Assembly (NCBI GenBank): GCA_017403985.1
Contig: JAFRDE010000001.1
Location: forward strand, 124,001 to 188,000
Origin: Ruminococcus sp.
GTDB taxonomy: Bacteria > Bacillota > Clostridia > Oscillospirales > Acutalibacteraceae
Length of the DNA: 64,000 bases
Direction of reading: 5' to 3'
In this document: positions 47,557-64,000 of the stretch, piece after piece
Layout of the letters: every line of letters starts with the position of its first letter
Numbering within the stretch: position 1 is the stretch's first letter
Translations under genes and position numbers: made by a program
Notes under the pieces: model-generated
The model's database searches: none
The model's input: the letters and a program-made list of their open reading frames with translations, nothing else
Told to the model about the DNA's origin: nothing

Positions 47557-48162
47557 TCACGCTTTTCTGACCGTATGCGCCCAATTAAGGAAGCTGTCTT
47601 CATAGAGAGAATAAAGATAATCCATCGTATAGAACTGTACGAAATAATACTCGTCATCACTTTCAAACGCGGTCGAAAAATAAGTAAATGTCGAGCCTTC
47701 GTTGCTGGCGGTATAATCAAAATATCGCAGTCCGTTGTCCTCTTTTATCTCGCTCGCTTCACCCTTGGCATTATCATGCTGGACATTCAGATAATCATTA
47801 AGAGAGGAAACATAAGTTCCTTCAAATAAACTCTTTTCTTCACCGAATGCGCCAAAGACAAGATTATCGTCGCTGTTAACATACAAACATTGAATAGTAG
47901 AACCTTCGGGGATCAAATTATTGCTCTCCGCAAAACCGACCGGCAATGTGATGACCATATCGCCGAACGTGATATCCTGATTCGCCGGAGCTTCTGTCTG
48001 GATGGGCGTATCCACGACCGATGACGAATGATCGGTATTAGGGATACTGCTGTTATTATTGTTTTTGTTGTTATTGTTCGGATTCCTGTTGAAAAACATT
48101 CCGCAGGACGCAAGTGAAAAAGCCAAAATACAAACCAACAGTATTGCTAAAACTCTCTTCAT
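47557..48162 (-). CDS. Lipoprotein of unknown function
   Basis: The 201-residue product has a lipoprotein signal peptide with lipobox LASC, an Asn-rich spacer (NPNNNNKNNNNSS) and a soluble domain of about 140 residues (DITFGDMVITLPVGFAE...), probably mixed alpha/beta. It has its own promoter. No family named. Confidence 0.7.
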   Translation of the reverse strand: MKRVLAILLVCILAFSLASCGMFFNRNPNNNNKNNNNSSIPNTDHSSSVVDTPIQTEAPANQDITFGDMVITLPVGFAESNNLIPEGSTIQCLYVNSDDNLVFGAFGEEKSLFEGTYVSSLNDYLNVQHDNAKGEASEIKEDNGLRYFDYTASNEGSTFTYFSTAFESDDEYYFVQFYTMDYLYSLYEDSFLNWAHTVRKA

Positions 48163-48301: not shown

Positions 48302-48338
48302 AGATAAAGCGCTTGCCGCCACGACAAACGCTTTTATC
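48302..48338 (-). terminator. Hairpin at the end of the ABC exporter gene
   Basis: GATAAAGCG...CGCTTTTATC with an inner TTG/CAA pair. It overlaps the stop codon of the exporter gene and ends the pqqD-like operon. Confidence 0.6.
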
Positions 48339-50010
48339 TGCATATGATTTTTTTGTTTTCTATCGTCACCGTCTTATCACAAAACCGCTCGGCGGCTTTT
48401 TTATGCGAGATAAGAATACATGTTTTATTCTTAAGCTCCCGTAAGTTTTCTAACAACGAGAGCTCGGTCGCCTCATCCAGCGCCGAAGTCGCCTCGTCCA
48501 GCAGGATGACAGGCGCTCCGGAAAGGATCGCACGGGCGATCGCGACGCGTTGTACCTGACCCTCGCTCAGTCCTCCCCCATGCTCCGCGATGACGGTATT
48601 CAGCCCCTCGGGAAGCTCTTTGATAAATTCCTCAGCGCAGGCGATATGCGCCGCGTGCATAATGTCTTCATCCGTCGCGTCGGGCGCGACAAATGCAATA
48701 TTCTCACGCAGGGTACCGGACAGCAGGAAATTACCCTGCGGCACATAGGAAAAGAGCTTTCTGATACTCTTATCAACAATATATTTATGCTCATGAGTAC
48801 GGATATAGATCTCGCCCGACTTCGGCTGATAGACGCTCAACAGCAGCTTCATCAGCGTGCTTTTGCCGATACCGGAGATACCCTCGATAGCGACGAACTC
48901 GCCCTTTTTGATCATCAGAGATGTGGAATCAAGGACGATATCGCGGTCGAAAGCAAAGCTGATATCGTCAAAGCAGATCGCTTCCATGTCTTCATACAGC
49001 TTTTGCGGATCGATATCGCTGTTAAGCTCCGGTTCATCGGGAAGATTCTCGATCTCCATCAGCCTTTCGGCAGATGCAAGCGCGGTAAAATAGGTCGGAA
49101 AGATATTCGTCATGCCCTGTATCGGCGTACGGATCTGCCCTACCAGCGAGGTGATCTGCATCAACACGCCGTAAGAGATCGCGCCGTAATACAGCATATA
49201 GGCGCCCCAGCAGAGTCCCCATACAAAGGCAAAGGCAAAGACCGCTGACATTCCCGTGCCGGTGATGATGGAAAAGATATTTCTCTTTCGCTGGGAACGG
49301 TAGCTTTCCTCCTGCAGAGAATACGCGGATTTCTGCATCTTTTCCTGCGCGTCAAAGGTCTTGATCATCAAGAGGGAGCCTAAACCCTCCTGCATAAAGG
49401 AACGAACCTTTCCTTCCTTTTCCTGTACATCCTTATGCAGACGCTTGGTGACAGGCTTGAACAGGGACGCTATGACGAAGATCAGCGCCCCGCCCACGAC
49501 GAACACCAGCGCGAACAACACGTTGATCCGCACAAGGATATAGAAGATACCGACGATCTTTACGATAAAGAATACCAGATTCGGTACGATGGAGACGATC
49601 GCCGAGGTCACGACGTTGACGTCGTTGGTCAGACGGTTCATCAGTTCACCGGAATGATAGGCGGAGATATCGGCGTATTCCTTCATCATCATCGAGCGGA
49701 ACAGCGAAGACTTCATGCTCATATCGAGCTTTGCGCCGACCTTGAAGCAAAGATCGCGCGCCAAAATAAGGGTGACGATCTGTATCACGGTAACGCCCAG
49801 ATACAGCAGACCGTAGCGGATGACGTCATCCAGCGGACCGCCCTGCACACCCTTGACGGCGGCGTCTACCAGATCGCGCGCGAATACCGTGTTATATACG
49901 CCGATAAACGCGTTCAGTCCGTAGATGACCGCCAAAAATATAATATTGATAAACTGAGGCCTTGAGCTGCGTACGATCCAGCTCAAGGCGCTTTTTTGTT
50001 TTGCGGACAC
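48334..50010 (-). CDS. ABC exporter (fused permease and ATPase)
   Basis: The 558-residue half-transporter has an N-terminal six-helix exporter domain (about 15-310) and an ATPase with Walker A EGISGIGKSTL, signature LSEGQVQRVAIARA, Walker B VILLDEATSALDE and ISHKKAAE. There is no N-terminal C39 peptidase. The start is GTG at 50010, five bases after GGAGG; a TTG four codons earlier would place the ribosome site inside the gene. Third gene of the PqqD-like operon, it is the likely exporter for a peptide or modified product of the locus. Confidence 0.88.
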   Translation of the reverse strand: MSAKQKSALSWIVRSSRPQFINIIFLAVIYGLNAFIGVYNTVFARDLVDAAVKGVQGGPLDDVIRYGLLYLGVTVIQIVTLILARDLCFKVGAKLDMSMKSSLFRSMMMKEYADISAYHSGELMNRLTNDVNVVTSAIVSIVPNLVFFIVKIVGIFYILVRINVLFALVFVVGGALIFVIASLFKPVTKRLHKDVQEKEGKVRSFMQEGLGSLLMIKTFDAQEKMQKSAYSLQEESYRSQRKRNIFSIITGTGMSAVFAFAFVWGLCWGAYMLYYGAISYGVLMQITSLVGQIRTPIQGMTNIFPTYFTALASAERLMEIENLPDEPELNSDIDPQKLYEDMEAICFDDISFAFDRDIVLDSTSLMIKKGEFVAIEGISGIGKSTLMKLLLSVYQPKSGEIYIRTHEHKYIVDKSIRKLFSYVPQGNFLLSGTLRENIAFVAPDATDEDIMHAAHIACAEEFIKELPEGLNTVIAEHGGGLSEGQVQRVAIARAILSGAPVILLDEATSALDEATELSLLENLRELKNKTCILISHKKAAERFCDKTVTIENKKIICR

Positions 50011-50032
50011 ATTATCCTCCAACCGAAGTTAA

Positions 50033-50704
50033 TCAAACTCTCTCCAAAATGAAACGAAAATCATCAACGCTGCCCACACCGAAGAACTTCACGCGATGCA
50101 TAACGCGCTCTAAGATAAACAGCGTATGTTTGGTTCTCTCCTGACGGACGTTCTGCGACACCGCACGCATGAACAGCGGTACGAAATCCTTCGCTTCGAT
50201 CGCCCTGAGCGAATCAAAGCGCTGTCTGTCGACAAAGACGATCGACTTCAGCCTGAGCTTCTTCCCGGTAACAGACATATTGCCGTAGTCGCCGAAGGGC
50301 GTATCAAAAACATAGTAGTCGTCGTCCTGCATGCGGATGCCGGGATAATTGTACTCAAACGCGTACTTGCGCGGTATACGCTGCACCAGATCGACCGTCA
50401 TATCGTTCGGCGCGGCGAACAGCGTGCATTCGCCGTCGTTTTCAACGCCGACCGCACGGATCGGGAAGCCGTTGAAATCAAAAATCGCCCACGAATACAG
50501 CGTCGCCATATAAAGGGCTTCCACCGCGTCGGCGGTCATCCCCTCATATTCCTCCATCATTTCAAGCAGGCGGTCGTCGCTCATTTCGAGCGTGATATTC
50601 GGATCCGCCTTGTAGGTCACCTCATAGCGCTTGATACTCTCGGCGAGCGTCGGTGATTTTGTTTTAATGTCGACATTCAGGTCGGAAATTCGATATAAAG
50701 CCAT
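50033..50704 (-). CDS. HPr-kinase-like protein with degenerate P-loop
   Basis: The 223-residue product follows the pattern of HprK-like kinases found beside PqqD in RiPP loci: a strand-loop where GPSGSGKST is expected (here FAAPNDMTVDL, residues 96-106), a DDD box (127-129), a DTPFGD segment (134-139) and a hydrophobic strand LKSIVFVD, then a helical tail. The P-loop lysine is gone, so it is probably not an active ATP-dependent kinase. It lies 38 bases after pqqD and 22 bases before the exporter start. The fold call rests on pattern and context. Confidence 0.5.
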   Translation of the reverse strand: MALYRISDLNVDIKTKSPTLAESIKRYEVTYKADPNITLEMSDDRLLEMMEEYEGMTADAVEALYMATLYSWAIFDFNGFPIRAVGVENDGECTLFAAPNDMTVDLVQRIPRKYAFEYNYPGIRMQDDDYYVFDTPFGDYGNMSVTGKKLRLKSIVFVDRQRFDSLRAIEAKDFVPLFMRAVSQNVRQERTKHTLFILERVMHRVKFFGVGSVDDFRFILERV

Positions 50705-50742
50705 GATGTTACTCCGTAAAATGGTTAAGATTATTGATCAAC

Positions 50743-51006
50743 TTATTCGAGTAAATCAGCCTCTCTGAGCTTAGCGATGAATCGATCGATATCGGCGGCT
50801 GCCGTCGCTTCATCGACGTCATATTCCTCGAGCATTTTCGCGATAAGCTCTTCCCTGTCGGCGCCCTTTTCCAGCAGCTTCCACAGGAAGGCGCCGCTCT
50901 CGGATAATTTGATGATACCGGAAAAATCTGCCGCGCGCGTACGCACGGGAACGACCATGTAGGAACCGGCGATTTTCTTCAATATAAAGTTATCTTTCAC
51001 TTTCAT
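50743..51006 (-). CDS. PqqD-family peptide-recognition protein
   Basis: The 87-residue product has the PqqD fold pattern: MKVKDNFILKKIAGSYMVVP (strands), LSESGAFLWKLLEKGADREE, then a helical half ending DIDRFIAKLREADLL. PqqD-like domains (RRE) bind leader peptides for RiPP enzymes. No radical SAM or other maturase is in the operon, which continues with an HprK-like protein and an ABC exporter. GGTGAT lies before the ATG at 51006. The peptide gene at 51172-51324, immediately upstream, is the obvious candidate ligand. Confidence 0.85.
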   Translation of the reverse strand: MKVKDNFILKKIAGSYMVVPVRTRAADFSGIIKLSESGAFLWKLLEKGADREELIAKMLEEYDVDEATAAADIDRFIAKLREADLLE

Positions 51007-51085
51007 ATAATCACCATAAAAATTATAGCTTATCATGGCGATTTTTGCAAGTGGGAAATCATGATTTCAAAAGAGATTCAACAGA

Positions 51086-51114
51086 AAACGGCAGTCTGTG
51101 CATGGCTGCCGTTT
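51086..51114 (-). terminator. Terminator after the first 50-aa peptide gene
   Basis: AAACGGCAG / CTGCCGTTT, followed on the minus strand by TTCTG, between the peptide gene and the PqqD-family gene. Confidence 0.75.
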
Positions 51115-51171
51115 CCTATCCGTAAAACTCAATCACGGATGATGTGTATTCACTTATCTGTGTAACAGACT

Positions 51172-51324
51172 TTAGAGTTCCTCCATCGAATCGGGATTAT
51201 TAGGATCAAATTCTCCGCCGCTGACAGGGATATCGCTTTCGATCGGACTGGTCAGGATCACGTCCCTGAAGGTATATTCCACGATCTCTATCTCAGGGGA
51301 TACATATAAATTTTTCATTTTCAT
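51172..51324 (-). CDS. Small DVIxTS-motif peptide, copy 1 (50 aa)
   Basis: Begins MKMKNLYVSPEIEIVEYTF, has the core RDVILTSPIESD (20-31), a Gly-Gly (36-37) and an acidic Asn/Pro-rich end FDPNNPDSMEEL. It has no signal peptide and no cysteine. AAGGAGG is four bases before the first ATG; a second ATG is two codons later. It begins 18 bases after the stop of the giant secreted protein gene and is followed by a hairpin. It is 47/50 identical to the peptide at 61439-61591. It may be a precursor peptide or a small adaptor; function unknown. Confidence 0.75.
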   Translation of the reverse strand: MKMKNLYVSPEIEIVEYTFRDVILTSPIESDIPVSGGEFDPNNPDSMEEL

Positions 51325-51342
51325 CAATCCTCCTTCGTTAGA

Positions 51343-54300
51343 TTAAACCGGGAAATATTGACCCGGGGTGAATGTGCCGGTCTTGATCTCGCTGTAGGTG
51401 AATTCTCCGCTGACCTTAGTATAGGCGATAACCTTGTAGCTGCAGCCTGAGAACTGAGCGTAATCGCAGCTCATCCAAAGATCGGTACGGTTCAGTTTTG
51501 ACAGCGACGCCGCCCTGACACGGTAAGCATAGGTCGTATTCGTACCGCAGCCGTAGTTGGTATTGCCCAGCTTAGCTGAAGTCAAATCACGCGTTGACAT
51601 CGTATCGACCAGACTCTGAACTTTACTGTTAGCCAACGAGGAAAAAGCAGACTGATTGGCGCTTGTGGCAGATTTGTTCTGGAACAGGATCACCACGCCG
51701 CATTCGTTTGTCTTGGGATCGAACTCACTGCCGGTATCCGCCTTATTGCGGAAGTTGACCAGCGTATCGTTATAGATCTTACCGTTGGAGGCATCCGTCA
51801 GCTCCTGCGTGACGACGTTCTTGTCGATACCCGCCTGCCAGCCGGTACCGCGAAGGGTCGCGACCTGATCGGCAGGAGCAAAGAACGGCTTGATGGACAT
51901 ATTCTGCGTGATGCTGTAGCCGAAGTTCGCCTGTGTAGACAGGATCGTCGGTGTAGCGGAATTATCATTGTAAGCGATCCATCCGACGAATACGTCGCTG
52001 CTTTGACCGGAAGGCTTGTTGGCGACATAGCCGACGCCGAGATCGATCTTGGAGCTCCAGATCTTGTTGCTGATCGTTTGTGTATTCTCAAGAACGCCGC
52101 TGTCGCTATAGCTGTAAACCGTCAGCGTATACTTCGCGTCTGTGGACGAGCCTTCGATCGTGATCTCATACGGATTGGAATTATCCATATGATCAGTGTC
52201 GATTGTAAAGCTGACATTATGATTGAACACATGGATCTTGTTCAGATTCGACAGTTCACCCTCGATTTCCGTAAGACGCGTGGTCCTATCCAGAATACCG
52301 CCTGCAGACATTTCCGCAGCCGTCGCACCGGTAGCTGCCTTGACGGAATAGGTCACGATACCGTTTCTGCCGGGATAGGTAAAGTAATAGGTCGCCTGCG
52401 CGGAGAACATCGCGAAGTAACGGCTGTCGGTAGCGAAGCTCGGATTATAAATCAGACTGTCGCTGACCTTGGTGTACTCATCCTTGGTTTCATCATAGCT
52501 GTACCAGCCCTTGAATTCGCTGCTGTTCGCGGTCGCCGCGGTCAGAGTAACCTTTCCCTTGGTCGCGTCGGAAAGCTTCAGACTCGCCCAGTCAAGACCG
52601 TTGATCGTGCTCTTGGTCGCACTGGTAAGATCATTGGGATAGCTGATCGCGGAGGTACCGTAGCTCGCGCGGCTCTGCGGGTTCTCGGGAACGATCGCGT
52701 TGCCGTTTTCATCCATCATGCCGACGCCGGCGTATACGGTGACCTTCTCGTTGGTGGAGTTCGCATACCACTGACCGGAGAAGCGCGTCGCCGAGCCGCG
52801 GGTATTCGGCGCTTCGTAAGAGATCTTGATGGATTTCTCGCTCAGGGTACTGACGTCGCTGACAAGACCGCTGTTCATCAGCAGATCGGCGACATAAGGC
52901 TTGTCGCTGCCGGCGGCTTTCGCATAGAGCGCGTCGGACAGGGTGTGCAGCAGGAAGACGCCGTTCGCGTCATAGATGTACCACTCGACCGAATACTGAC
53001 CGTTGTAGGAGGAGTTCGGCGCGTAGGGTTTACCGTTGGGCGTGGTATCGGACTTATAGTCGACGTCGCCGACGCAGATGACATAGTAGCCTGCCGGAGC
53101 GGAGCCGACGGATTCGCCGAACATATTCAGACGGTTCTTGCCGTCCTTATCGGTCAGGTACTCAAAGGTGTAGGTGTCAAAAAGGGTCTGGTGCTCATCG
53201 AGTCCCTCGTCATAGTAATCGTATGCCTTACCGGGTACGCACTCGGTGTTATTGGTATTATGGACGTCGAGCTGCCACACACTCTTGTTCTTTGCGGAGT
53301 CGGAGTTATAATATTCGCCGCGGTAGCCGTCGTTGTTCTGTTTCAGTGAGAAGGAGAGCAGATTCTCGGAACCGCGTTCCATCAGGGTGATCGGCTCGGC
53401 ATAGTCGTAGGTCTGCGCCCAGTCGGGATAATTGAAGCGCTTACCGAACTTACCGAGGAAAGAATGCTCTACGTTATAGTTATTGAACAGAACGCCGCTA
53501 AGCTCCGCGCCTTCTTTCTGGTAGATAACGCCGGAGAAGGACTTACCGCTCGGGAGCATCAGCTGACCGGGCCATCCGCCGTTATTGTCGCGCGCTGTGC
53601 CGGTACCGCCGAAGACATACATGGCGACGAGGTCGCCCCATACGTTGCTGTCGACGTCCGCTGCATTGACGAACACCTCATACTTGCTGTAGCCGGCAGA
53701 AGAAGCGGCGCTTTCTGTCATCTCGTAGACAGGACAGATGAAGGTTTTGCTGCTGACGTTGGAGATCGAGCCGGAATAAACATTGCCCGCCTTTGTCGCC
53801 TTTGCGGTAGTCGCTTCGCCGGTATCCATGTTGTAGACGACGAAGCCGGATACCAGCGCTTTGGCTGCGTCCGTACCGTTGATGGTGACCTGGAAGTCGA
53901 CCGTTTCTAAGGTGCCGGTAAACTTCTTATAGCTGTATCTGTCCTCCCATTTTGTTCCGTCGGTCAGATGACTGTTACCGGTGCCGTCCTGACCGGGGGT
54001 GGTGATGCTCTGGGTCGGCTCGCTGAGAGTAAGACCCAACTTCGACGCTAAACCGTCGATACGACCGTTGGAGAGGTAGATCTCGTGATAGCTACTGTTA
54101 TAGACCGGAATGATGTAGACCTCGTTGGTAGAGGGCTTGTAGTAGATACGCACCTTGTTGGAGTCGGTATTCGACCCGTCGGTCAGGTGGAATTCACACT
54201 GACCGTTGCTGTTCAGCGTATGAGCAGTATCGATTGTGATATTGCCGTAATCGCCGTTATAGCTGATCGTCTTCGCGGCGTTGTACCATACCGCCTGATT

Positions 54301-57300
54301 CGTGGTGCCGGAGCTGTTGTTGTTGCCGGTGGCGGCAAGGTCAAAGATCTTGAAGTAATAGTGAGTGTTAACGGTCAAACCGTCCGTTTCGTGGTAGTAG
54401 ACCTGATTTGCTTCATCATAGGTCATGCTCACCGCGTTGCTCCAGGAAACGCTGCTGCCCAGCCCCTTGTTGCTGCCTGCGCCGTCGCCGCCGAGGAAGA
54501 TGTCACGGGTAGCGACGCCGTAAAGGAATGCCGACTTGGTCAGCGTGTAACGATAGACCGTGCTGTTCACAGCAGCAGGATCGATATCGCCCGCGCCGAG
54601 GTTGGGACCGGACGAGGAACCGTCAAACCATCCGATGAACTGGTACTTATTGTTCAGGTCGTCGGTAACGAGCAGGAGCTCGCTGTTTTCGGGGAATTTG
54701 CCGATGAGGTCGCCGTCCTCATCCGCCTCGATCAGATAGAAGGTATCGCCGCCGTCGGTTCTGGTCTCGAGAGGCCAAACAACGCCCGCAGCTTCCGCCG
54801 CAGCTTCATCCACGGGAGCGGAATCAAGCTTGAGGTACGCCTTGAGCTCTGCGATAGTTACCGACTCTACCTCGCCGAGGGAGGTTGTGCTCTTCTTATT
54901 ATAGGTGATGTACTTTGAGCTGACGTCGGACATGACCTTGGAGGTGATGTTGACGTTATAGCTCGTCGTACAGGTAGGCGTGATGATGACGTTGCCGCCG
55001 ATCTTACCGGTGATGGTGACGGTGTTATCGTCAAATACGATATGCATCGTATGACCGTCAAAGGTCAGGTCTGCGCTGGTATTCGAGCTGTTCACGGTCA
55101 CGTTGCTGCCGCCGACATACTTGACGTTCAGATCAGTCAGGATGCTGGTACCGTAATAATCGTCGGAGCCTTTGACAGTAATAGAATGGACGTCTGCTCC
55201 GGTACTGTAGTAGCCGGAAGCGGAGATTCCATCGATATCGACCTTATCGGCGTTCTTGACCGTGATACGGCAGGTATAGGGCTTTAAGGTGATCTCGGTG
55301 ATATGTACGTCGTGGTCGGGCATATTGAAGGAAATATAATGACCGTGGTTGACATACTCGACGCTCTCGCCCGTATCAAAGGTAACGGTATCGATACCGA
55401 AGCCGGCGGAGAGATTGTTGAAGGTCACGTTGACGTTGGCGCCATAGTAGATATTCTGCGGATTCGTCGTACTGCCGTTGATACCGGTGAAATACTCACC
55501 CGCCGTTGTATCTGTTGTATTGACCTCAACGGAATTCTGTGTAACGTATTTTGCGGTCAGGGTGACGTTGTCTTCGGTGATCCCCGCTTCGCCGTCGGTC
55601 TTAACATAGATCGTCGCGGCGTCAGAACCGGCAGCATAAGCTGCGGTACAGGCCGCATCCGTATACAGGCGGACATGGGATGATTTATCGCCGGAGAGGA
55701 CCCAGCCGCGGAAGACATAGGTTTTATCTGTATTAGCGGCAGGCTTGCTGACAGTCAGGGCAGATACGCCGCTGAAGTCGTCGGATTTCGAAGCGATAAC
55801 GGTCGAAACGCCGTTCTCGGTCTTTTCGATCTTGATGTTGGCTGTATTGACGTTCCACTTGGCATAGTAAGTCTGCGCACCGGTGATCGCTGTAGTGAAA
55901 TCGACCTTGGTAGAATCATTTTGCGTTGTCGCGCTGGTATACCAGCCGCCGAAGCTGTAGCCCGCGCGGGTCGGGGTAATGTTCTTCGCCTTGGCGCCGT
56001 AGGTGACGGCGAGCTGAGAAGTCGTATCCGAACTGCCACCATAATTTGATTCATTGTTATTGTAGGTGATGACCTGCGGGAAGTAGACGCTGACATTATG
56101 GGTCGTCGCATCATAAACGAACTTGTAAGTATGCGAATCGGTGCTTCCCGTAATGCGGATCGCTTCCAGTTCACAGTTGTTGCCATCCGAAGAATAGAAA
56201 GTATAATTCTCTGCGGTATTGGTCATTTTATTATTCAGACCGTACCAAGTTCTGTGATCAACGTCATAAACCTTAAAGCCGTTGCCGCCGGTCTCGTTGC
56301 GATAGAAATTACGGTTATCCGGCAGAGAAAGCTCGATATAATACTTGCCGGCATACGGGCCGGAGGGCATATAGGTCATGACGCGGTCGGGATTCAGCGT
56401 CGTGTTGTAGTTCCACGCATCACCCACGGAACCCGTCCACAGACCGAGCAGCATCATCGCCGGAGGCTCGTTGACTACGATAGTCGCGGACTTGGAGGAG
56501 CCGCCCATCGTCGCGGTGACGACATAGGTGCCGGGCATTTCTGTGCGGAATGTTGCGGTATTCGTCGCCGCGGCGGTCTCGCGATCACCCGCAGAGCCGC
56601 CGATCGTCAGGTAATCGGACGCGGTGACGGCGGTACCGTTCTTTGTGATCGTATAGACGATATTGCCGGTCTGGTTGGTGTTCGTCGCGGTCAGGGTGAC
56701 CGAGTCGCCGATACTCACGCCGGTCGTACCTGCCGTAGCGGGAGAAGTCGTCAACGAATTCAGCACAGGATTGCTGTTCTGCGCAAAGGTGACGTTGATG
56801 TTTTGGATCGCATAGGCTGTATCCGTGCCGCCGACTACCGTAAAGGTATAGTCGCCGTTAGCATCGGGGCCGGAGAGCCCGACGCCGTCATAGGTCACGG
56901 TGCTGACGTCATAGCCCTCGTTCGGGGTAGGATGGAATTTGAAGGTCGTGGAACGCGACGCGTAGAAGGTGGTGTTGGAGCTTGCGCTGACCGTACCGGT
57001 CTGCGAAACCACGCCGGAGGTACCGGCAGAGGTCGCCTTGTAGTATTCAACAGAAACCGAACCGTTCGCGCCGACGGTCACCTTCTGACCGCGGTTGAGG
57101 TAGTTACCCTCGTTGGTGCTTCTGTCGGCTACATATACACCTGAGCCGTCGATCGCGGTATCCTTGATCCACAGAAAATCAAGCGCGGATACGTTATCGC
57201 TGTTCTCGCCTAAGCCGAAGCCGATAAAGGATTTATCCTGATTATTGCCGTTGGCAAGATTATAGTAGCTGATATAGGTCGTCTTTTCGACGATGTTTGC

Positions 57301-59172
57301 CGTACCGGCAGAGGTAGCAAGAGCAAAACCGAAATAGGTATAGTTGTTCCAGCTGCCGCCGTTCAGGTAATACAGCTGATCGGTATTGGTCACCTTTGAC
57401 ATCTGGAGCATCGAGTAATTGTTGTTATTATCGCCGATGACGAAATACAGCTTATTGCTGCCGGAGATATTCCAGTTCGTGGAAGTATTATCGAAATAAA
57501 TCTTTCCGTAGCCGGAATACGTTGCGGTCGAATGTCCGGGCGCGCTGAAGTTTCCGCTGCTGTAGGTGATCGAGTTATTCAACACGTCAGTGATCGGGAT
57601 ATAGCCGGAATCGTTGCCGCCGATGACAAACCTGACGCAGTTATAATTGTAAGAAGCGTTCTCCGGTACGGCGGGAATCTCAGTATGATACACACCCGAT
57701 GTACCGTACTGCTGCGCGTGAGTACCTTCGACAGAGTTCGCGCCTGTCACGTCGGTCGCAAAATAGACCGCAGGATCAAGACCGTTGCTCGCGTTGAGAT
57801 ATACGGTCATACCCTCCATCGCGACTTCCTTTGCGAAGTTCGCGGTGACGGACTGACCGCTTGACGAAGCGTTGAACTGCGTATGATATTGATTCGCGTT
57901 ATTGGTTGTATCGAACGTGATACCGGACGTACCTGTCCAGCCGGTAAAGAAGTAGCCGGAATCCGCCTGTGCGTACGCGTTACCCTTGGTGGCTACGCCG
58001 ACGCCGGTAACGGTCTTTGCCGCGGCGGTATAGGTACTGCCGTCGATCGAAGTCTTACCGTGTCCGGCTGTGACAGCGGTAACGCTGACATTCTGAGCTG
58101 TTTCAGTCCAATGAGCGACCAGAGTGATATTGGAGTTGACAGCAGTAGAGAAATTGTACTCACTGCCGTTCAGCGTCCAGTAATCGAAAGTGTAGCCGGA
58201 TTTTGTAGGATTGCCGGGCGCAGTTGCAGTACCGCCTGCAGCAATCGTCTGTGACGCGACCGCAGAACCGCCGTCGGAATCAAAAGTGACGGTATAAGAG
58301 GTCGGATAGGTGACGGAAACAGTCGCTGTTTTATTCTTCCAATCCGACGCGGTAATAGAAACGGTATACGGAGCTGAAGCAGTCGTAGTAAACGCAGCTA
58401 CATTATTCGTGGAATTGGAAAAAGCCAAATTCGCAGTCGTACCGGAAATATCAGAATTACAACCCAGATACATCGTATCGGTCGTAGTATCATAGTTGCT
58501 GTTGGTTGAGAAATTCGGAAAACTGCTGTAATCCTTGACTACTTTATAATAATACTTCGTAGCGGCGTCAAGCGTACCTGTAGTTGCGGTAAAAGTGCTT
58601 GCTTCACTTGCGGGATTATCAGAAGTAGTAAAGTCAGCCAGCTTTGTCCAGTCTGAACCGGTGGTCTTTCCGCCGTACAGCTTGTAAGACGGCGGAGTAG
58701 GCAAGCTGGAAAATTTAGTAATACAAGGAGTACTATCTGTACGAAGCTCGGAGTTCGGATACCAAACTACGATATAGCCGGCGCTATTAGCTTTCAAATC
58801 GCTTCCATCCCAATCAAAATCAGAGGAAGAAGAAATGCCAGAAGCACCCCAAAAATCATTTACTTTTTGATCGTATTTAGTCCAAGAACCGTTTCCGTCA
58901 GTAATTTGAAACTTAGCAGATCCGGTCAACTGATAATAAGAATAGTATCCGCTCGGATGTTTTGTGAGTTCTGTCCAAGTACCCCAATTGCCGGGGATAC
59001 CGCCGCCATTACCTACTATGTAATACGACTTGCTGGTATCAACAGAGCCGACTTCAGCCAGATCCTCCAAAACAGCCGCGAAGCCGGTGGTGACGGTGCC
59101 GAGCATGAGTAAAAGCGCTAACACCAGAGCGGTAGAAGCGCGAAGAATATGCGTGAGTTTCTTTGATTTCAT
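51343..59172 (-). CDS. Giant secreted multi-module surface protein (2,609 aa)
   Basis: A signal peptide (MKSKKLTHILRASTALVLAL to about 33) precedes a chain of beta modules rich in Thr, Ser, Asn, Gly and Tyr. Among them are InlB-B type repeats (YTVTFDSDGGSAVASQTI near 300; again near 1,100), an Ig-like stretch (LNSLTTSPATAGTTGVSIGD) and a CBM26-like module near 1,850 (LVAMYVFGG...NGGWPGQLM...GVLFNNY). The last 790 residues are paralogous to the protein at 61610-64000 and end TGTFTPGQYFPV. No LPxTG, transmembrane tail or dockerin is visible, so anchoring is unexplained. The ATG at 59172 follows GGAGG. Probable role: binding starch or another glycan at the cell surface. Confidence 0.85.
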   Translation of the reverse strand: MKSKKLTHILRASTALVLALLLMLGTVTTGFAAVLEDLAEVGSVDTSKSYYIVGNGGGIPGNWGTWTELTKHPSGYYSYYQLTGSAKFQITDGNGSWTKYDQKVNDFWGASGISSSSDFDWDGSDLKANSAGYIVVWYPNSELRTDSTPCITKFSSLPTPPSYKLYGGKTTGSDWTKLADFTTSDNPASEASTFTATTGTLDAATKYYYKVVKDYSSFPNFSTNSNYDTTTDTMYLGCNSDISGTTANLAFSNSTNNVAAFTTTASAPYTVSITASDWKNKTATVSVTYPTSYTVTFDSDGGSAVASQTIAAGGTATAPGNPTKSGYTFDYWTLNGSEYNFSTAVNSNITLVAHWTETAQNVSVTAVTAGHGKTSIDGSTYTAAAKTVTGVGVATKGNAYAQADSGYFFTGWTGTSGITFDTTNNANQYHTQFNASSSGQSVTANFAKEVAMEGMTVYLNASNGLDPAVYFATDVTGANSVEGTHAQQYGTSGVYHTEIPAVPENASYNYNCVRFVIGGNDSGYIPITDVLNNSITYSSGNFSAPGHSTATYSGYGKIYFDNTSTNWNISGSNKLYFVIGDNNNNYSMLQMSKVTNTDQLYYLNGGSWNNYTYFGFALATSAGTANIVEKTTYISYYNLANGNNQDKSFIGFGLGENSDNVSALDFLWIKDTAIDGSGVYVADRSTNEGNYLNRGQKVTVGANGSVSVEYYKATSAGTSGVVSQTGTVSASSNTTFYASRSTTFKFHPTPNEGYDVSTVTYDGVGLSGPDANGDYTFTVVGGTDTAYAIQNINVTFAQNSNPVLNSLTTSPATAGTTGVSIGDSVTLTATNTNQTGNIVYTITKNGTAVTASDYLTIGGSAGDRETAAATNTATFRTEMPGTYVVTATMGGSSKSATIVVNEPPAMMLLGLWTGSVGDAWNYNTTLNPDRVMTYMPSGPYAGKYYIELSLPDNRNFYRNETGGNGFKVYDVDHRTWYGLNNKMTNTAENYTFYSSDGNNCELEAIRITGSTDSHTYKFVYDATTHNVSVYFPQVITYNNNESNYGGSSDTTSQLAVTYGAKAKNITPTRAGYSFGGWYTSATTQNDSTKVDFTTAITGAQTYYAKWNVNTANIKIEKTENGVSTVIASKSDDFSGVSALTVSKPAANTDKTYVFRGWVLSGDKSSHVRLYTDAACTAAYAAGSDAATIYVKTDGEAGITEDNVTLTAKYVTQNSVEVNTTDTTAGEYFTGINGSTTNPQNIYYGANVNVTFNNLSAGFGIDTVTFDTGESVEYVNHGHYISFNMPDHDVHITEITLKPYTCRITVKNADKVDIDGISASGYYSTGADVHSITVKGSDDYYGTSILTDLNVKYVGGSNVTVNSSNTSADLTFDGHTMHIVFDDNTVTITGKIGGNVIITPTCTTSYNVNITSKVMSDVSSKYITYNKKSTTSLGEVESVTIAELKAYLKLDSAPVDEAAAEAAGVVWPLETRTDGGDTFYLIEADEDGDLIGKFPENSELLLVTDDLNNKYQFIGWFDGSSSGPNLGAGDIDPAAVNSTVYRYTLTKSAFLYGVATRDIFLGGDGAGSNKGLGSSVSWSNAVSMTYDEANQVYYHETDGLTVNTHYYFKIFDLAATGNNNSSGTTNQAVWYNAAKTISYNGDYGNITIDTAHTLNSNGQCEFHLTDGSNTDSNKVRIYYKPSTNEVYIIPVYNSSYHEIYLSNGRIDGLASKLGLTLSEPTQSITTPGQDGTGNSHLTDGTKWEDRYSYKKFTGTLETVDFQVTINGTDAAKALVSGFVVYNMDTGEATTAKATKAGNVYSGSISNVSSKTFICPVYEMTESAASSAGYSKYEVFVNAADVDSNVWGDLVAMYVFGGTGTARDNNGGWPGQLMLPSGKSFSGVIYQKEGAELSGVLFNNYNVEHSFLGKFGKRFNYPDWAQTYDYAEPITLMERGSENLLSFSLKQNNDGYRGEYYNSDSAKNKSVWQLDVHNTNNTECVPGKAYDYYDEGLDEHQTLFDTYTFEYLTDKDGKNRLNMFGESVGSAPAGYYVICVGDVDYKSDTTPNGKPYAPNSSYNGQYSVEWYIYDANGVFLLHTLSDALYAKAAGSDKPYVADLLMNSGLVSDVSTLSEKSIKISYEAPNTRGSATRFSGQWYANSTNEKVTVYAGVGMMDENGNAIVPENPQSRASYGTSAISYPNDLTSATKSTINGLDWASLKLSDATKGKVTLTAATANSSEFKGWYSYDETKDEYTKVSDSLIYNPSFATDSRYFAMFSAQATYYFTYPGRNGIVTYSVKAATGATAAEMSAGGILDRTTRLTEIEGELSNLNKIHVFNHNVSFTIDTDHMDNSNPYEITIEGSSTDAKYTLTVYSYSDSGVLENTQTISNKIWSSKIDLGVGYVANKPSGQSSDVFVGWIAYNDNSATPTILSTQANFGYSITQNMSIKPFFAPADQVATLRGTGWQAGIDKNVVTQELTDASNGKIYNDTLVNFRNKADTGSEFDPKTNECGVVILFQNKSATSANQSAFSSLANSKVQSLVDTMSTRDLTSAKLGNTNYGCGTNTTYAYRVRAASLSKLNRTDLWMSCDYAQFSGCSYKVIAYTKVSGEFTYSEIKTGTFTPGQYFPV

Positions 59173-59412
59173 TCTATCATTCCTCCAAATCTTATTCACT
59201 TAGATATGACGCGGGCTTTTCACGCGCCGAAAATTATTCGGAAAAGAAGAGTTACCCGGATCAAACGCGCCCTGACCATGCGCGCCTCCTGTAGCTGTAT
59301 CCGAATGATCGGGATGATTCGGAAAAAAGGGTATGCAGGATAGCTCATCATATGCAGTTCCTTCATATTTTAACAGTGCAACAAAAACAAGGAATCTACA
59401 CCAATTTAGTTT
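59173..59412 (-). other. Long leader of the giant protein gene, with a possible vestigial peptide ORF
   Basis: About 230 bases separate the promoter from the ATG. One frame (59200-59380) reads ...TGGAHGQGAFDPGNSSFPNN, faintly like the GG..FDPNNPD end of the 50-aa peptides, but it has no start codon. A different frame (59220-59366) could encode 48 basic residues without a convincing ribosome site. I do not call either as a gene. Confidence 0.3.
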
Positions 59413-59441
59413 ATTATATAAAACATTTGAACAAAAATCAA
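59413..59441 (-). promoter_or_regulatory. Promoter of the giant protein gene
   Basis: On the minus strand TTGATT (59436-59441), 17-base spacer, TATAAT (59413-59418). The expected leader is over 230 bases. Confidence 0.75.
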
Positions 59442-59542
59442 TAAGATTTTTAGAACTTTTGATAATAATTTTTACTGCATCTATCCTATCCCGCAAAAAA
59501 GCTCGCTAATCTATGCGGTATCAACATATTTTCTGCATGCAA

Positions 59543-59584
59543 AACAGCCGACAGGCTCTCACATTGAAAGCGCCGTCGGCTGTT
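59543..59584 (-). terminator. Terminator after the 41-aa peptide gene
   Basis: AACAGCCGAC / GTCGGCTGTT with TTTT on the minus strand, 14 bases past the peptide stop. Confidence 0.8.
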
Positions 59585-59597
59585 GTCGTTCAATTGT

Positions 59598-59723
59598 TTA
59601 TCTGTTCGGCTTGAGGATTTCATCCTCAAACCGATCGCCTTCCGGAGTTGAGGTGACGATCACATCTTCAGCATCAAAGACAGTGAGGGTCAGTGCGGTA
59701 CGTTCATAATTCTCTTTCATCAT
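59598..59723 (-). CDS. Small DVIxTS-motif peptide, divergent member (41 aa)
   Basis: Begins MMKENYERTALTLTVFDAE, core EDVIVTSTPEGD, end RFEDEILKPNR. It shares DVI(L/V)TSxxExD with the two 50-aa peptides but little else. GGAGG lies five bases before the first ATG. It starts 11 bases after the stop of the leucine-rich-repeat protein gene and is followed by a terminator, the same arrangement as the other two. No signal peptide. Confidence 0.7.
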   Translation of the reverse strand: MMKENYERTALTLTVFDAEDVIVTSTPEGDRFEDEILKPNR

Positions 59724-59734
59724 CACGACCTCCC

Positions 59735-61348
59735 TCATTCGTTGAAAAAGACGTTTGCGGCTTGGTTATAGCGATAGACCGCCGCCGCGAGCTGCTTTGT
59801 GATACTCGAGCTGTACGGCGCATCGTCCAAACTATACGCAAGCGCGGAATAATCGAGTGCGGAATACTGATATTCATGACCGTTGAGCACAAACACATAC
59901 TCTGTGTCGAGCTGTGAAGCAGCGATATTCGGCTTGTCGAAGTAGATCAAGCCGTTTTTGGTACCGTAGGTCACGTGTTCGCCGTTAAAGGTGACGCCGT
60001 TCTTGATCTCAGCGGTGAACTTTGAGGAATCCTTGATCTTATAATAATGACGGAGCGTTGTCTTGGAGAGATAGATGACCGAAGTGCCGTAATATTCCAG
60101 ACCGCAGTCCTCGAGATACTCTTCCATATCGCTTGCACCGCTCGATATCGTTACTTCACCGGTATAGAAATCGGTGGTTCCGCCGTTGGCGAGATTATCG
60201 GTGTTGCAGTTAAAGCGGATCTGCGCCTTGGAGCCGTAGTCGAGCATTTTTTTCACAAGATCCTGAAGCTGTGTTAATCTCTGATCGCCGTTTCTGCCCT
60301 TGTTATTCTCGGATTCGACATAGGAGATCGCGAAATCGGTATCTGTCAGGATCTTATTCGCGTAGGTCACGGCGGAATAGGTATCGGGGAAGCTGCATAC
60401 CGCATTGTCGACCAACACCTTCGCGGTCACGCCGCAGGTCATTTCCGCGATGGCAACGGGACACGCCGCCTTGTAGCCGATCGAAGTTTTATCATCGGGA
60501 GCCAGCGTATCGGAATGAGTATACTCAACACCGTCGACCGTCCAGGAGAAATCAACCTTTGCCCTGCCGCTGTTCACATATGCATCCGGAACATTGACAT
60601 AGAAATTGATCACGATATCGCCGTTCAGGGAGATGGAATGTTTGGTGAAATAGACGTCCGCATCCAACAGAACAAAAGGAATATCCTTTTCGACAGCGTA
60701 GGTATGAGCTGCGGAACCGCTGTAACAGTAGATCGTCAGTGCGTCACAGCCGTAAAAGGCGTTGTCGGAGATATTCGTCACGGACGCGGGGATCAGCAGG
60801 CTTTGAAGCGACGAGCACTGATAGAACGCGTAGTTGCCGATCGAGGTACAGGTATCGGGCAGCTGCAGATCACTGAGCCCGGAATTCGCAAAGCAGTAAT
60901 CGGGGATCACTGTCACGGAGGAATCCTGCAGGTTGACGTCCGATAATGAGGAGCAGTTATAGAAGCAGCCCATCCCGACAGAGGTGATCGAGGGATAGAA
61001 GACGACCTTCTGTAAGCCGGAGCAGCAGTGGAAGGCGTATTCATCGACGGTCTCCAATACGGAAGAGAGCGTCACGGCGGTGACGGAGGTCTTCTGGTAG
61101 AAGGCGTAGTCGGCGATCTCGGTGACATACTGCTTCGCAAAGGCATAAGGCAGTTCGACCGCGGGACCCTCACCGAGATATTTAACGATCTTATAGCCGT
61201 AATTCGTGAGAGGCTGATAAGACCAGTCGCCGGAGGTGATCACAACGCCGTCGCCTGTTTCTTCCAGATCAACCGGAGCAGCAGCTACGGAAACAGAGAC
61301 AGCACAAATCAACAGGATTGAAAGCAAAATCGATAATAGACGTTTCAT
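59735..61348 (-). CDS. Secreted BspA-type leucine-rich-repeat surface protein
   Basis: The 537-residue product has a signal peptide (MKRLLSILLSILLICAVSVSVAAA). At least five BspA/LRR_5 repeats follow at about 50-230, of the form SIGNYAFYQCSSLQSLLIP and VTNISDNAFYGCDALTIY. The C-terminal half of about 300 residues is beta-rich and ends in a helix, LAAAVYRYNQAANVFFNE. BspA repeats mediate adhesion in gut and oral bacteria. The ATG at 61348 follows AAAGGATA. There is no visible wall anchor. Confidence 0.85.
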   Translation of the reverse strand: MKRLLSILLSILLICAVSVSVAAAPVDLEETGDGVVITSGDWSYQPLTNYGYKIVKYLGEGPAVELPYAFAKQYVTEIADYAFYQKTSVTAVTLSSVLETVDEYAFHCCSGLQKVVFYPSITSVGMGCFYNCSSLSDVNLQDSSVTVIPDYCFANSGLSDLQLPDTCTSIGNYAFYQCSSLQSLLIPASVTNISDNAFYGCDALTIYCYSGSAAHTYAVEKDIPFVLLDADVYFTKHSISLNGDIVINFYVNVPDAYVNSGRAKVDFSWTVDGVEYTHSDTLAPDDKTSIGYKAACPVAIAEMTCGVTAKVLVDNAVCSFPDTYSAVTYANKILTDTDFAISYVESENNKGRNGDQRLTQLQDLVKKMLDYGSKAQIRFNCNTDNLANGGTTDFYTGEVTISSGASDMEEYLEDCGLEYYGTSVIYLSKTTLRHYYKIKDSSKFTAEIKNGVTFNGEHVTYGTKNGLIYFDKPNIAASQLDTEYVFVLNGHEYQYSALDYSALAYSLDDAPYSSSITKQLAAAVYRYNQAANVFFNE

Positions 61349-61380
61349 AAGCGTTATCCTTTCACATTCAATAAAACACA

Positions 61381-61410
61381 ATATGCCGCAGCTGTTACAC
61401 TGCGGCATAT
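61381..61410 (-). terminator. Terminator after the second 50-aa peptide gene
   Basis: ATATGCCGCAG / CTGCGGCATAT, a perfect 11-base stem; on the minus strand TTGTGTTTTATTG follows. Confidence 0.8.
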
Positions 61411-61438
61411 TTGCAATCACTTATCTGTGTAACAGACT

Positions 61439-61591
61439 TTAGAGTTCTTCCATCGGGTCAGGGTTATTAGGATCAAATTCTCCGCCGCTGACCGGGATAT
61501 CGCTTTCGACAGGACTTGTCAAAATCACATCCCTGAAGGTGTATTTAACAATCTCGATCTCAGGGGATACATATAAATTTTTCATTTTCAT
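61439..61591 (-). CDS. Small DVIxTS-motif peptide, copy 2 (50 aa)
   Basis: Differs from the copy at 51172-51324 only at residues 16 (K for E), 28 (V for I) and 46 (P for S). Core RDVILTSPVESD. The ribosome site AAGGAGG is the same, and about 25 bases beyond the stop are identical in both copies. It begins 18 bases after the stop of the giant protein gene at 61610-64000. Several silent differences at codon third positions suggest selection on the peptide. Confidence 0.75.
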   Translation of the reverse strand: MKMKNLYVSPEIEIVKYTFRDVILTSPVESDIPVSGGEFDPNNPDPMEEL

Positions 61592-61609
61592 CAATCCTCC
61601 TTCAACAGA

Positions 61610-64000
61610 TTAAACTGCAGGGAATTTTTGACCAGGAGTGAATGTGCCGGTCTTGATCGGGCTGTAGGTGTAGGAGCCGCCGTCCTTGGTGTAGGAAACC
61701 ACTAAGAACTTTCCTCCGGTGAACTGGGAGTAATCGCAGCCCATGTAGAGGTCTGCACGGTTCAGATCGGAGAGCGACGTCGTCTTGATGCGGTAAGCAT
61801 ACGCGTCACCTACGCCGCGGCTCGCGCCGAGCTTCGCCGATCTAAAGTTATCGCCGGCATTGTCTGCACCGGAAGCCATAGACTGTACAAAGCTTTGGAT
61901 TGTAGAGGTATTCGCCGCCAAGGAATCGAATGCAGTGCTGTAAGTCGCATCCTTTGTCGACTCGCCGGTCTGGAAGATGACCAGTAATCCGCTGTCGCCG
62001 GTATACTTCTCGCCGGTAGCTTCATTGTTGCGGATGTTGATCAGCGTATCGGTATAGATCCTACCGGTAGAGGAGCTCGTCAGTTCCTGTGTGACGCCGA
62101 CCTTGTCGATGCCTGCCTGCCAGCCGGTACCGCGCAGTGCGGTGACCTCTGCGTCAGTCGCAACGAAGAACGGCTCGATGGAAATATTATCCGAAACGCT
62201 GTAGCCGAAGTTCGCCTGCGTGGACAGGATGGTCGGATAAGTGGAAGAGTTTCCTGCGCTATAGCTGCTGCCGGTACCGTACTTGATCCAGCCGGCAAAC
62301 TTATAGTCAGAATGACCGGAAGGCTTATTCGCGATGTACGATACGCCGAGGTCGACCTTTCTCGCCCATGTACCGGTAACGGTTTCCACCGGTGATCCGA
62401 GCACACCGCTTTCATTATAAGCATAGACCGTTGTCGTATACGTTGTATCGGTGGTAGTGCCGGTGAACTTCAGTTCATAAGGCGAGGAGTTATCAGCAGT
62501 GCCGATCGTGAAGTCGGTATTCTTGTTGAATACGGTGATATCGCTGATCTTCGCGAGCTTCTCAGCTACGTCGGAAGATCTCTTGGAGATATTGAGGGTA
62601 CCGCCTTCTGCCATCTCATCCTGATCAAGGTCGTAACCGGGCATCGAGTAAACTCTGGTGCTGTTACGTCCGGGATAAGTAAAGGTGTAGGTGGCAGCCG
62701 CGCTGTAGAACGCGTAGTAGGTGATATCGGAGTTGAAGGACGGGGTGATCGTCAGGTTCTTATAGTTGGAGTTGACTGGCACAAACTCGCCGTCTTCATT
62801 CTGCATATACCAACCGATGAACTTGTCGCTCGAGTTGGTAGCGGTAAAGGCGACTTTACCCTTTGTCGCGCTGGACTTCTTAACAGACGCCATACTGTAA
62901 TGGGTGTTGCTGAATTCGTCCACAAGATTCTCGCCCTTACCGGAATCCAGATCGCTATCGGAGACCGCTGCATAGTTTTCGCCGATCATGTTGTTGTCCA
63001 TCGGCGTATAAACGCCGTCGGAGAGGATACCTACGCGAACTTTACCTTCGATCAGGGTGTTGACGCCGTCGGCGTACCACTGACCGGAGTAACGGATCGC
63101 CTCAGACCATGTGCCGGGGTTCTCGTACGCGATCTTGACCGCCTTGCCCGTGACAGGATAGTCGGCAGCGAGCAGCTTGGACGCGATGTAGGAAGTGACG
63201 TCTTCATCGTTCACGACAGCGTCGGTGTAGGAAGCGGAGAGGTAGGAACCGCTGAGAACTTCCGTATTGTTAACGCTGTATACCTTCCAGTTGATCGAAT
63301 ATGCACCGGTATAATCTTCGCCGCTGCGGGTGCCGTTCTCAAAATCATACGCACCGCTCGAAGAATAAAGGTTGGTGTAGTAAGCGACGATACGATAAGT
63401 CTCGGTCGCGTTGTTGACCTTGTTGCCGTTGAGGTCGACACGGTTCTTACCGGAACGGTCGGTCAGGTAGCCGACGTCAGCCCAGTTGTCTACGCGATCC
63501 AAAGAGCCGGAACCGGCGGAATTGATCGTCGGGGCGGTCTTCATATCGCCGGACTTGAGCGCGAAGGTCAGGTCCATATCATCGGTATCGTAAATAATGC
63601 TGGTGCCGGTACCGTCTTTTTCATTGATATTATCAATGATAGAGATCGGCTCACGGTAGTCGTAGGTCTGGTAGATATGAGTGTTGTTAGCGGAATAATC
63701 AACATCGCTGACAGACTTGCTCTTATAGGTTGCGAGGAAGTTCGCGCCTGCACCGCTGCCGCCCCATCTTCTCGCATAGTTGTTGAAGGTGATGCCGGCG
63801 AGACCGTTATGGGTAAAGGTCAGAGGAGCGTAGAAGGAAGAGCCGTCATCAGAGGGGATCATCAGCTGACCGGGCCAGAAGCCGCTGTCGTAGCGGGTAT
63901 CGGTACCCCATGAGTACATCGCGACCAAACCGCCCCAGTCGTCCTTATCGATCTCATCGGTACGGACGTAAACCATGTGGGTCTCTAAGCTTTGTGAGCT
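61610..64000 (-). CDS. Giant secreted surface protein, C-terminal part (runs off the window)
   Basis: 797 codons are visible and the frame is open to the window edge, so the N-terminus is missing. The visible part aligns over its whole length with the C-terminal third of the protein at 51343-59172: a CBM26-like module (GGLVAMYSWG...GFWPGQLMIP...GITFNNY), then TILSTQANFGYSVSDNISIEPFF, LRGTGWQAGIDK and the end KTGTFTPGQKFPAV. It carries no LPxTG or transmembrane tail. It is followed 18 bases later by a 50-aa peptide gene, like its paralogue. Confidence 0.85.
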   Translation of the reverse strand, partial: SSQSLETHMVYVRTDEIDKDDWGGLVAMYSWGTDTRYDSGFWPGQLMIPSDDGSSFYAPLTFTHNGLAGITFNNYARRWGGSGAGANFLATYKSKSVSDVDYSANNTHIYQTYDYREPISIIDNINEKDGTGTSIIYDTDDMDLTFALKSGDMKTAPTINSAGSGSLDRVDNWADVGYLTDRSGKNRVDLNGNKVNNATETYRIVAYYTNLYSSSGAYDFENGTRSGEDYTGAYSINWKVYSVNNTEVLSGSYLSASYTDAVVNDEDVTSYIASKLLAADYPVTGKAVKIAYENPGTWSEAIRYSGQWYADGVNTLIEGKVRVGILSDGVYTPMDNNMIGENYAAVSDSDLDSGKGENLVDEFSNTHYSMASVKKSSATKGKVAFTATNSSDKFIGWYMQNEDGEFVPVNSNYKNLTITPSFNSDITYYAFYSAAATYTFTYPGRNSTRVYSMPGYDLDQDEMAEGGTLNISKRSSDVAEKLAKISDITVFNKNTDFTIGTADNSSPYELKFTGTTTDTTYTTTVYAYNESGVLGSPVETVTGTWARKVDLGVSYIANKPSGHSDYKFAGWIKYGTGSSYSAGNSSTYPTILSTQANFGYSVSDNISIEPFFVATDAEVTALRGTGWQAGIDKVGVTQELTSSSTGRIYTDTLINIRNNEATGEKYTGDSGLLVIFQTGESTKDATYSTAFDSLAANTSTIQSFVQSMASGADNAGDNFRSAKLGASRGVGDAYAYRIKTTSLSDLNRADLYMGCDYSQFTGGKFLVVSYTKDGGSYTYSPIKTGTFTPGQKFPAV

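Follow-up and report, generated by a model that had tools for sequence, protein, structure and literature searches.

Small genes behind large secreted proteins in Clostridia probably encode precursors related to linear polyphosphorylated peptides

Introduction

Linear polyphosphorylated peptides (LPP) are ribosomally synthesized and post-translationally modified peptides (RiPPs) specified by the genes LppA, K, B, S, D, and N (Popov et al. 2026, PMC13381572). According to the parts of that report used here, the precursor leader carries a YxxP motif, LppS cuts after T-1 with the aid of LppB, which it needs, and LppK phosphorylates S3, while the S29, H68, and D93 variants of SipW are inactive. 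The same parts describe one to three precursors per cluster, sought within 5 kb and often found in capsule loci of Bacilli, and state that the role of LPP is unknown. Here we analyze a family of small genes present in a 64,000-nucleotide stretch of DNA from Ruminococcus sp. (positions 124,001 to 188,000 of JAFRDE010000001.1, assembly GCA_017403985.1), hereafter the window, which is part of contig C41 in a 2.68-Mb genome. Three of these genes lie in the window, each directly behind the gene of a large protein, and are followed by genes for a PqqD-family protein, an HprK-like protein, and an ATP-binding cassette (ABC) exporter.

Two other described systems resemble this locus. Paeninodin-type lasso peptide clusters have a PqqD-type B1 protein, an HprK-like kinase, a nucleotidyltransferase, an ABC exporter, and a [Y/W]xxP-type leader, as reported in the available parts of PMC13381572 and PMC7533575; they differ from the present case in that this genome has no match to the B2 protease and the operon neighborhood has no cyclase gene. 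The HPr-rel-A and SynChlorMet cassettes (TIGR04352/04353 and TIGR04248/04249) are matched weakly and below the cut-off by PqqD-family and HprK-like proteins encoded in the window or in related clusters, and with no match over the cut-off they are a lead only. No report of small peptides paired with secreted proteins was found in the literature, most subscription papers lying outside the coverage of the search. By term search, such pairing is not mentioned in PMC12710340, PMC7470986, or PMC13289728, and the words secreted, clostridi, and orphan are absent from the main text of PMC13381572.

The peptide family and its position behind secreted proteins

All genes described for the window lie on the minus strand. 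Peptide A (50 amino acids (aa), 51172-51324) begins 18 nt after the stop codon of giant 1 (2609 aa, 51343-59172), and peptide B (41 aa, 59598-59723) begins 11 nt after a BspA-type leucine-rich repeat (LRR) secreted protein (59735-61348, 537 aa counted from an inner Met). Peptide C (50 aa, 61439-61591), with 94% identity to peptide A, begins 18 nt after giant 2 (61610-64000), of which the C-terminal 796 aa are inside the window and whose open reading frame (ORF) runs to the contig end, being still open at 2954 aa. The three peptides have the motif DVI(L/V)TSxxExD in common and give no Pfam or NCBIfam match at E 1. Peptide A, a proposed precursor of LPP type, contains a YVSPEIE core, RDVILTS, and an acidic tail, and peptide B has a YERTALT core, without Pro at Tyr+3, and EDVIVTS. 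The original prediction, made from the letters of the window, had described these three units, their 11-18 nt spacing, and the shared motif, all of which stand.

With a profile of the N-terminal core of the peptides, 10 copies were found in this genome. The class sample of 243 genomes contains 38 that the profile matches at E <= 0.05, with a maximum of 27 matches in one genome (G241); at the loose threshold of E <= 1, it matches 31 of the 36 genomes of the genus, our own included, up to 14 times. In a scan of the phylum, 5 of 398 genomes match at E <= 0.001, two of the five being from this order. The family looks to be mainly one of this class. Two further observations bear on whether the peptides are real: a Shine-Dalgarno-like sequence is found 5' of 101 of 127 peptide starts, against 26.4 expected, and the ratio of nonsynonymous to synonymous polymorphism (pN/pS) is 0.28 (16 non-independent pairs).

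The consensus of the core is K-x-x-Y(98%)-x-x-P(64%)-E-(L/I)-E-(I/V)-x-x-F(77%)-x-x-E-D(93%)-(V/I)-(I/L)-T-(T/A)-S, where Tyr is present in 98% of 121 cores and Pro at Tyr+3 in 64% of 122. The Ser of the conserved column is present in 99 of 123 distinct cores, the remaining 24 being unaligned at that column. The tails that follow have a median length of 26 aa and a mean net charge of -3, and 103 of 126 are acidic. By a simple pattern, 74 of the 127 leaders have the Pro and 53 lack it.

To define pairing, we considered ORFs on the same strand ending between -40 and +75 nt upstream of the peptide; partners come from raw ORFs and controls from called genes, and a signal-like start was assigned with a simple hydrophobicity rule in place of a trained predictor. 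In the fetched loci, an ORF of at least 400 aa is in range before 97 of the 127 peptides, and one of at least 180 aa before 109. The corresponding frequencies are far lower for called genes in the peptide loci (50 of 764 behind an ORF of at least 400 aa, 15 with a signal-like start), for small intergenic ATG ORFs in those loci (11 of 336, seven with a signal-like start), and for genes in the cluster loci plus the window (19 of 240), which confirms that the placement of the peptides behind large ORFs exceeds chance. The first set of loci, from the genus and the order, has pairing in 62 of 78 cases, with a usual gap of 9-26 nt and a signal-like start in 43 of the 49 partners whose start is complete; in the combined set, 89 of 95 partners have such a start. 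The pairing with secreted proteins recurs across many genera. Within this genome, the gene in front of nine of the ten peptides encodes a large protein (561-2954 aa, raw ORFs) at a distance of -8 to +38 nt; seven of these proteins have a signal-like start, and two are cut at the start in the sequence examined. The tenth peptide is preceded by a secreted dockerin protein of 120 aa. The genus-mates G032 and G002 each have a peptide as well, behind secreted-type proteins of about 1820 aa (gap of 65 nt) and 1365 aa (gap of 17 nt), respectively.

The large proteins of the window had been noted to lack a visible anchor, and this is general among the partners: none of 109 has an LPXTG-like site and one of 109 has a C-terminal transmembrane segment. 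The tight two-gene spacing might also be expected of toxin-immunity pairs, in which the giants would be toxins and the peptides would protect against them. A single core common to peptides with unrelated partners is not what would be expected of immunity peptides, and the Pfam scan of the window proteins and 10 further partners found no toxin domain, for which reason we reject this explanation as extremely improbable. Translational read-through extending the giants was considered as well; a fused product is not general because the 18- and 11-nt gaps differ in frame and the gaps across loci vary widely.

Some loci contain tandem, near-identical modules of a secreted protein and its peptide, three of them in L095 (G012:C20) and others in L118 (G015) and L116 (G007), which suggests that the pair duplicates as one unit. 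A subclass of peptides with long tails (L113, L083, L075, L125, and L221) lies 30-47 nt after tiny secreted dockerin-type proteins (ORFs of about 120-146 aa), and four of its five tails end in PG(S/T/G)WF. Similar peptides in L093 and L087 have no dockerin-type gene, and a rubrerythrin-like gene is upstream. Both gene labels, dockerin-type and rubrerythrin-like, are presumptive and based on motifs.

Linkage of the peptides with an LPP-like gene set

Of the 243 class genomes, 73 have PqqD (E <= 0.001), 68 have an HprK-like gene, and 76 have a SipW/SEC11-like serine protease, the 61 of these below E 1e-15 being used for the protease overlap. PqqD is present in 34 of the 38 peptide genomes against 39 of the 205 others (Fisher 6e-17), the HprK-like gene in 35 of the 38 (6e-20), and the protease in 33 of the 38 (8e-19), although these P values overstate independence because the genomes are related. 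For other families of the order (23 genomes), PqqD is found in 7 of 7 genomes with a peptide at E <= 0.05 and in 1 of 16 others; at the loose E <= 1, twelve of these genomes have a peptide match and seven of the twelve have PqqD. The profile search of relatives thus bears out the expectation that the peptides follow large secreted genes and co-occur with PqqD; homologues spread widely apart from both PqqD and large secreted neighbors, which would speak against the original prediction, are not what it found. Most peptides nevertheless lie apart from such genes: for 106 of 127, the 4 kb around them show neither PqqD nor a protease or HprK-like gene, although some of these genes may have been missed at contig ends.

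In L218 (G246), L219 (G293), L232 (G132), and L146 (G043), the genes run in the order peptide, HprK-like protein, PqqD, SipW-like protease, ABC protein, and nucleoside triphosphate (NTP) transferase, so that the K-B-S-D-N set is complete with a precursor at its head. The NTP transferase was identified by Pfam in L218 (E 6e-50), by similarity to the L218 copy in L219 (E 3e-44), and by the phmmer query set in L232 and L146. In L232 the head peptide is preceded at 15 nt by a 738-aa ORF, and in L146 at 13 nt by a giant ORF. The protease has the motifs GxSMxPML, VLHRV, and GDN, all three being present in 64 of 92 sequences by a pattern check, and these correspond to the Ser-His-Asp layout of SipW as given in the parts of PMC13381572 used here.

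The Clostridia clusters therefore resemble the LPP set in their RiPP recognition element (RRE) of PqqD type, HprK-like kinase, SipW-like signal peptidase, MsbA-like exporter, and NTP transferase, in the absence of a cyclase, and in precursors with a YxxP leader, a conserved Ser after it, and a variable tail. The PqqD profile matches solved RREs that bind YxxP-type leaders, including LppB 9x8z (E 7e-4). The Clostridia motif YxxPE(L/I)E(I/V)xxFxxED(V/I)(I/L)TTS agrees only in part with the Bacilli consensus YxxPxVLxHQxIxFETxxS: both have the Tyr, a hydrophobic residue five positions after it, the Ser, and, in 64% of the Clostridia cores, the Pro, but HQ and FET are missing from the former. The precursors differ from those of Bacilli in their number, up to 27 per genome, in lying mostly away from the cluster, and in that most are behind a secreted protein. 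As judged from these comparisons, the machinery is of a known kind, matching the LPP set published in 2026, and the prediction of a wholly new system falls; the new part, as far as we have found, would be the scattering of the precursors over the genome behind secreted proteins. That the small genes encode LPP-type precursors is, in our judgement, highly probable.

A degraded or atypical lasso-peptide cluster would also account for part of this gene content, since the best NCBIfam matches of the PqqD protein are lasso B1 models, below cut-off, and ruminal bacteria have lasso clusters with HprK-like and nucleotidyltransferase genes, according to the available parts of PMC7533575. No cyclase is among the genes listed for the operon neighborhood, PF00733 itself not having been searched. 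PF13471 (B2) is without a match in this genome, and in the 38 peptide genomes no match exceeds the cut-off, the single one below it being in G168 (E 9.5e-4), and for this absence we reject the lasso cluster as very improbable. Three class genomes (G096, G201, and G247) have PF13471 over the cut-off together with PqqD, and in these there is no SipW-like protease match; within the class sample, the lasso and LPP-like sets split cleanly.

Leader type tends to correspond with RRE clade. A peptide lies within 3.5 kb of 21 PqqD genes, and six of these, beside non-Pro peptides, form one divergent RRE clade; the non-Pro case L030 is outside that clade, and L238 was scored as non-Pro only through a Phe replacing the Tyr. 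In the genus-and-order loci, partners with a helical C-terminus are found with 0 of 25 Pro leaders and 19 of 39 non-Pro leaders, a pattern picked after the grouping had been seen.

The window operon and its pseudokinase

Downstream of peptide A and in the same orientation, as originally described, are the PqqD-family RRE (LppB-like, 50743-51006; PF05402, E 2e-19), the HprK-like protein (50033-50704), and the MsbA-like exporter (LppD-like, 48334-50022), which has ABC_membrane and ABC_tran domains and for which the Pfam scan lists no C39 peptidase domain. The ORF of the PqqD gene is open to 51036, and its inner Met is the start in most homologues. The exporter is followed on the same strand by a putative lipoprotein-like gene (47557-48162) with a signal and a Cys motif.

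Each of the three units had been predicted to end in a terminator, and a strong terminator-like hairpin does follow every peptide: at 51084-51117 after A (z = -3.45), at 59540-59588 after B (z = -5.55), and at 61380-61411 after C (z = -5.17), although a separate pattern scan lists only the third. A promoter-like site (51050-51022) also lies between peptide A and PqqD, and with the hairpin this means that the two genes may not share a transcript. Among the partners, giant 1 has a signal-like N-terminus, Listeria-Bacteroides repeats, and a C-terminal beta-sandwich domain, whose model (predicted local distance difference test (pLDDT) 88.9) has weak matches to Ig-like sandwiches in PDB (TM ~0.3-0.4) that give no functional hint. 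The LRR protein matches LRR_5 (E 2e-35) and ends in a YRYNQAA-type region.

The HprK-like protein of the window, which the original prediction had called dead, indeed resembles LppK without its P-loop. It gives no Pfam or NCBIfam match at E 1; its model (pLDDT 91) matches PEP carboxykinase and HPr kinase structures, the best at E 2e-3 and none at 1e-3. The P-loop is absent in 33 of 64 HprK-like sequences (29 distinct among the 63 in the tree, some loci having been fetched twice). In this tree, all 33 sequences without the P-loop are separated from the 30 with it by one long branch with support 1.0. The ratio of nonsynonymous to synonymous substitution (dN/dS) of the pseudokinase is ~0.06-0.14 against near relatives with dS < 1.4, indicating purifying selection. 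A decaying pseudogene is ruled out by this separate, supported branch together with the low dN/dS; as far as we have found, the conserved pseudokinase branch appears to be new. Nine genomes of the genus carry the pseudokinase. In eight of them, another HprK-like gene retains the P-loop; in the remaining one (G023), the available sequence covers only a fragment at a contig edge. The P-loop-bearing paralogue of this genome is on contig C42.

The 38-nt gap between PqqD and the HprK-like gene (50705-50742) is the site where relatives have the SipW/SEC11-like protease gene, which is absent here. All 19 of the close relatives examined (L239-L257) have that gene between PqqD and HprK, in frame in L246, and it is also absent from a few more distant pseudokinase loci (L141, L264, and L292). 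In this genome, a SipW-like protease is encoded on contig C33 beside a divergent PqqD. Given the local pseudokinase and the missing protease, the C42 kinase and the C33 protease would have to act in trans. This second PqqD locus (L130, G000:C33:23800-24469) continues with a 552-aa secreted-type protein, and its listed neighborhood shows no kinase or exporter gene.

The window cluster thus has a discrete LppB-related RRE and an MsbA-like exporter, and it differs from the LPP set in its pseudokinase and in having neither a protease nor an NTP transferase match. These features would suit an explanation in which the peptides never become RiPPs but serve as small accessory proteins, either as chaperones or as regulators of the synthesis or export of giants, and are bound or degraded by the PqqD, HprK-like, and SipW-like proteins as a control, and the tight spacing to the upstream gene agrees with it. 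The runs of the LPP set with a peptide at the head, the YxxP core with its RRE relatives, and tails that are variable, unlike a chaperone, make this explanation quite improbable. The predicted link between the peptides and PqqD, which extends to the HprK-like genes, stands as a real and wide association, supported by co-occurrence, gene runs, and the YxxP core, with the reservation that the window has no protease gene.

Discussion

We propose that LPP-type precursors are spread over Clostridia genomes, one behind each of many secreted proteins, and that the tail of each acts with its neighbor; to this explanation as a whole we assign a probability of about 0.5. The precursor would be synthesized right after the secreted protein. 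By analogy with the published LPP work, the PqqD protein would bind the YxxP core and strand, the HprK-like kinase would phosphorylate the Ser conserved in DVIxTS, cleavage near DVI would fall to the SipW-like protease, and the ABC protein would export the acidic tail. Were the cut to follow the Ile of DVI, the conserved Ser is predicted to be core residue 3, as in LppA. In the window, the P-loop HprK-like protein (C42) and the protease (C33) would act in trans. The steps up to export draw on the published LPP pathway and on gene linkage. Beyond them, and least securely, the exported tail may act outside the cell with the protein encoded upstream, most simply by holding proteins that have no anchor, or assembling them, at the surface. 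Because the peptides are paired so often with secreted proteins that lack anchors, a role with the partner is the simplest interpretation, and an exported acidic phosphopeptide serving its secreted neighbor is the most likely product, but we hold such an extracellular partner role to be somewhat less probable than not.

Several observations weigh against this proposal. The loci were taken by best peptide score or by PqqD cluster, a non-random choice. Four genomes (G059, G154, G274, and G278) have peptide matches without PqqD by the E <= 0.001 test, and 39 genomes with PqqD have no peptide at E <= 0.05. No ORF of at least 180 aa is in range for 18 of the 127 peptides, and two peptides lie 241-272 nt after rubrerythrin-like genes. 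At two of the four complete runs, the gene before the head peptide fits poorly, being a secreted-type protein 133 nt away in L218 and a 390-aa ORF at 46 nt without a signal-like start in L219. The Pro is absent in 36% of cores, the HQ and FET of the Bacilli consensus are not kept, and the Ser is one residue further from the Tyr. The PqqD profile scores TbiB1, TfuB1, and the lasso chaperone 9x90 above LppB. Within the window, the HprK-like protein has no P-loop, no SipW-like protease match is found in the 64 kb, and PF14907 (NTP transferase) has no match, the rest of the genome not having been searched for it. The C-termini of 109 partners fall into 27 groups at phmmer E 1e-3, the largest with 28 members, and the similarity of tails is only weakly correlated with that of partners (rho 0.10, best of 300 permutations 0.06); both results argue against one docking mode. 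A single C-terminal docking domain shared by the partners is, with this grouping, unsupported. The correlation between leaders and partners is rho 0.19 (best permuted 0.07), and the weak correlation is as compatible with joint duplication as with function.

The diversity of partner types and the weak tail-partner correlation would also be expected if the exported LPP-type product worked alone, as a signal or antimicrobial, and the upstream secreted gene only gave a promoter and matched expression. In Bacilli, LPP clusters sit in capsule loci, with no secreted partner described in the parts of PMC13381572 used here. Across many genera, however, the peptides are repeatedly found behind secreted proteins, and a mere need for a promoter would not so often pick genes with signal-like starts, so we hold a free product to be rather unlikely and prefer a product acting with its secreted neighbor.

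The original interpretation is partly supported, and the finding is sound and wider than could be seen from the window: many gut and rumen Clostridia have one peptide family behind large secreted proteins. A more far-reaching possibility, which we offer as speculation, is that the RRE-guided machinery might be a general peptide-tagging system for the surface proteins of these bacteria, in which many secreted adhesin-like and small dockerin proteins would each have a private phosphorylated peptide, exported to hold, assemble, or mark its protein outside the cell, the pseudokinase branch being specialized for giants. That branch raises the question of how an HprK-like fold takes part in RiPP maturation without a P-loop. 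The association also predicts many small genes in abundant gut bacteria. Precursors located behind anchorless secreted proteins in many genera offer a hint to the role of LPP, testable by finding the peptide with its neighbor at the cell surface; if true, it would add RiPPs that serve surface proteins instead of acting as free metabolites.

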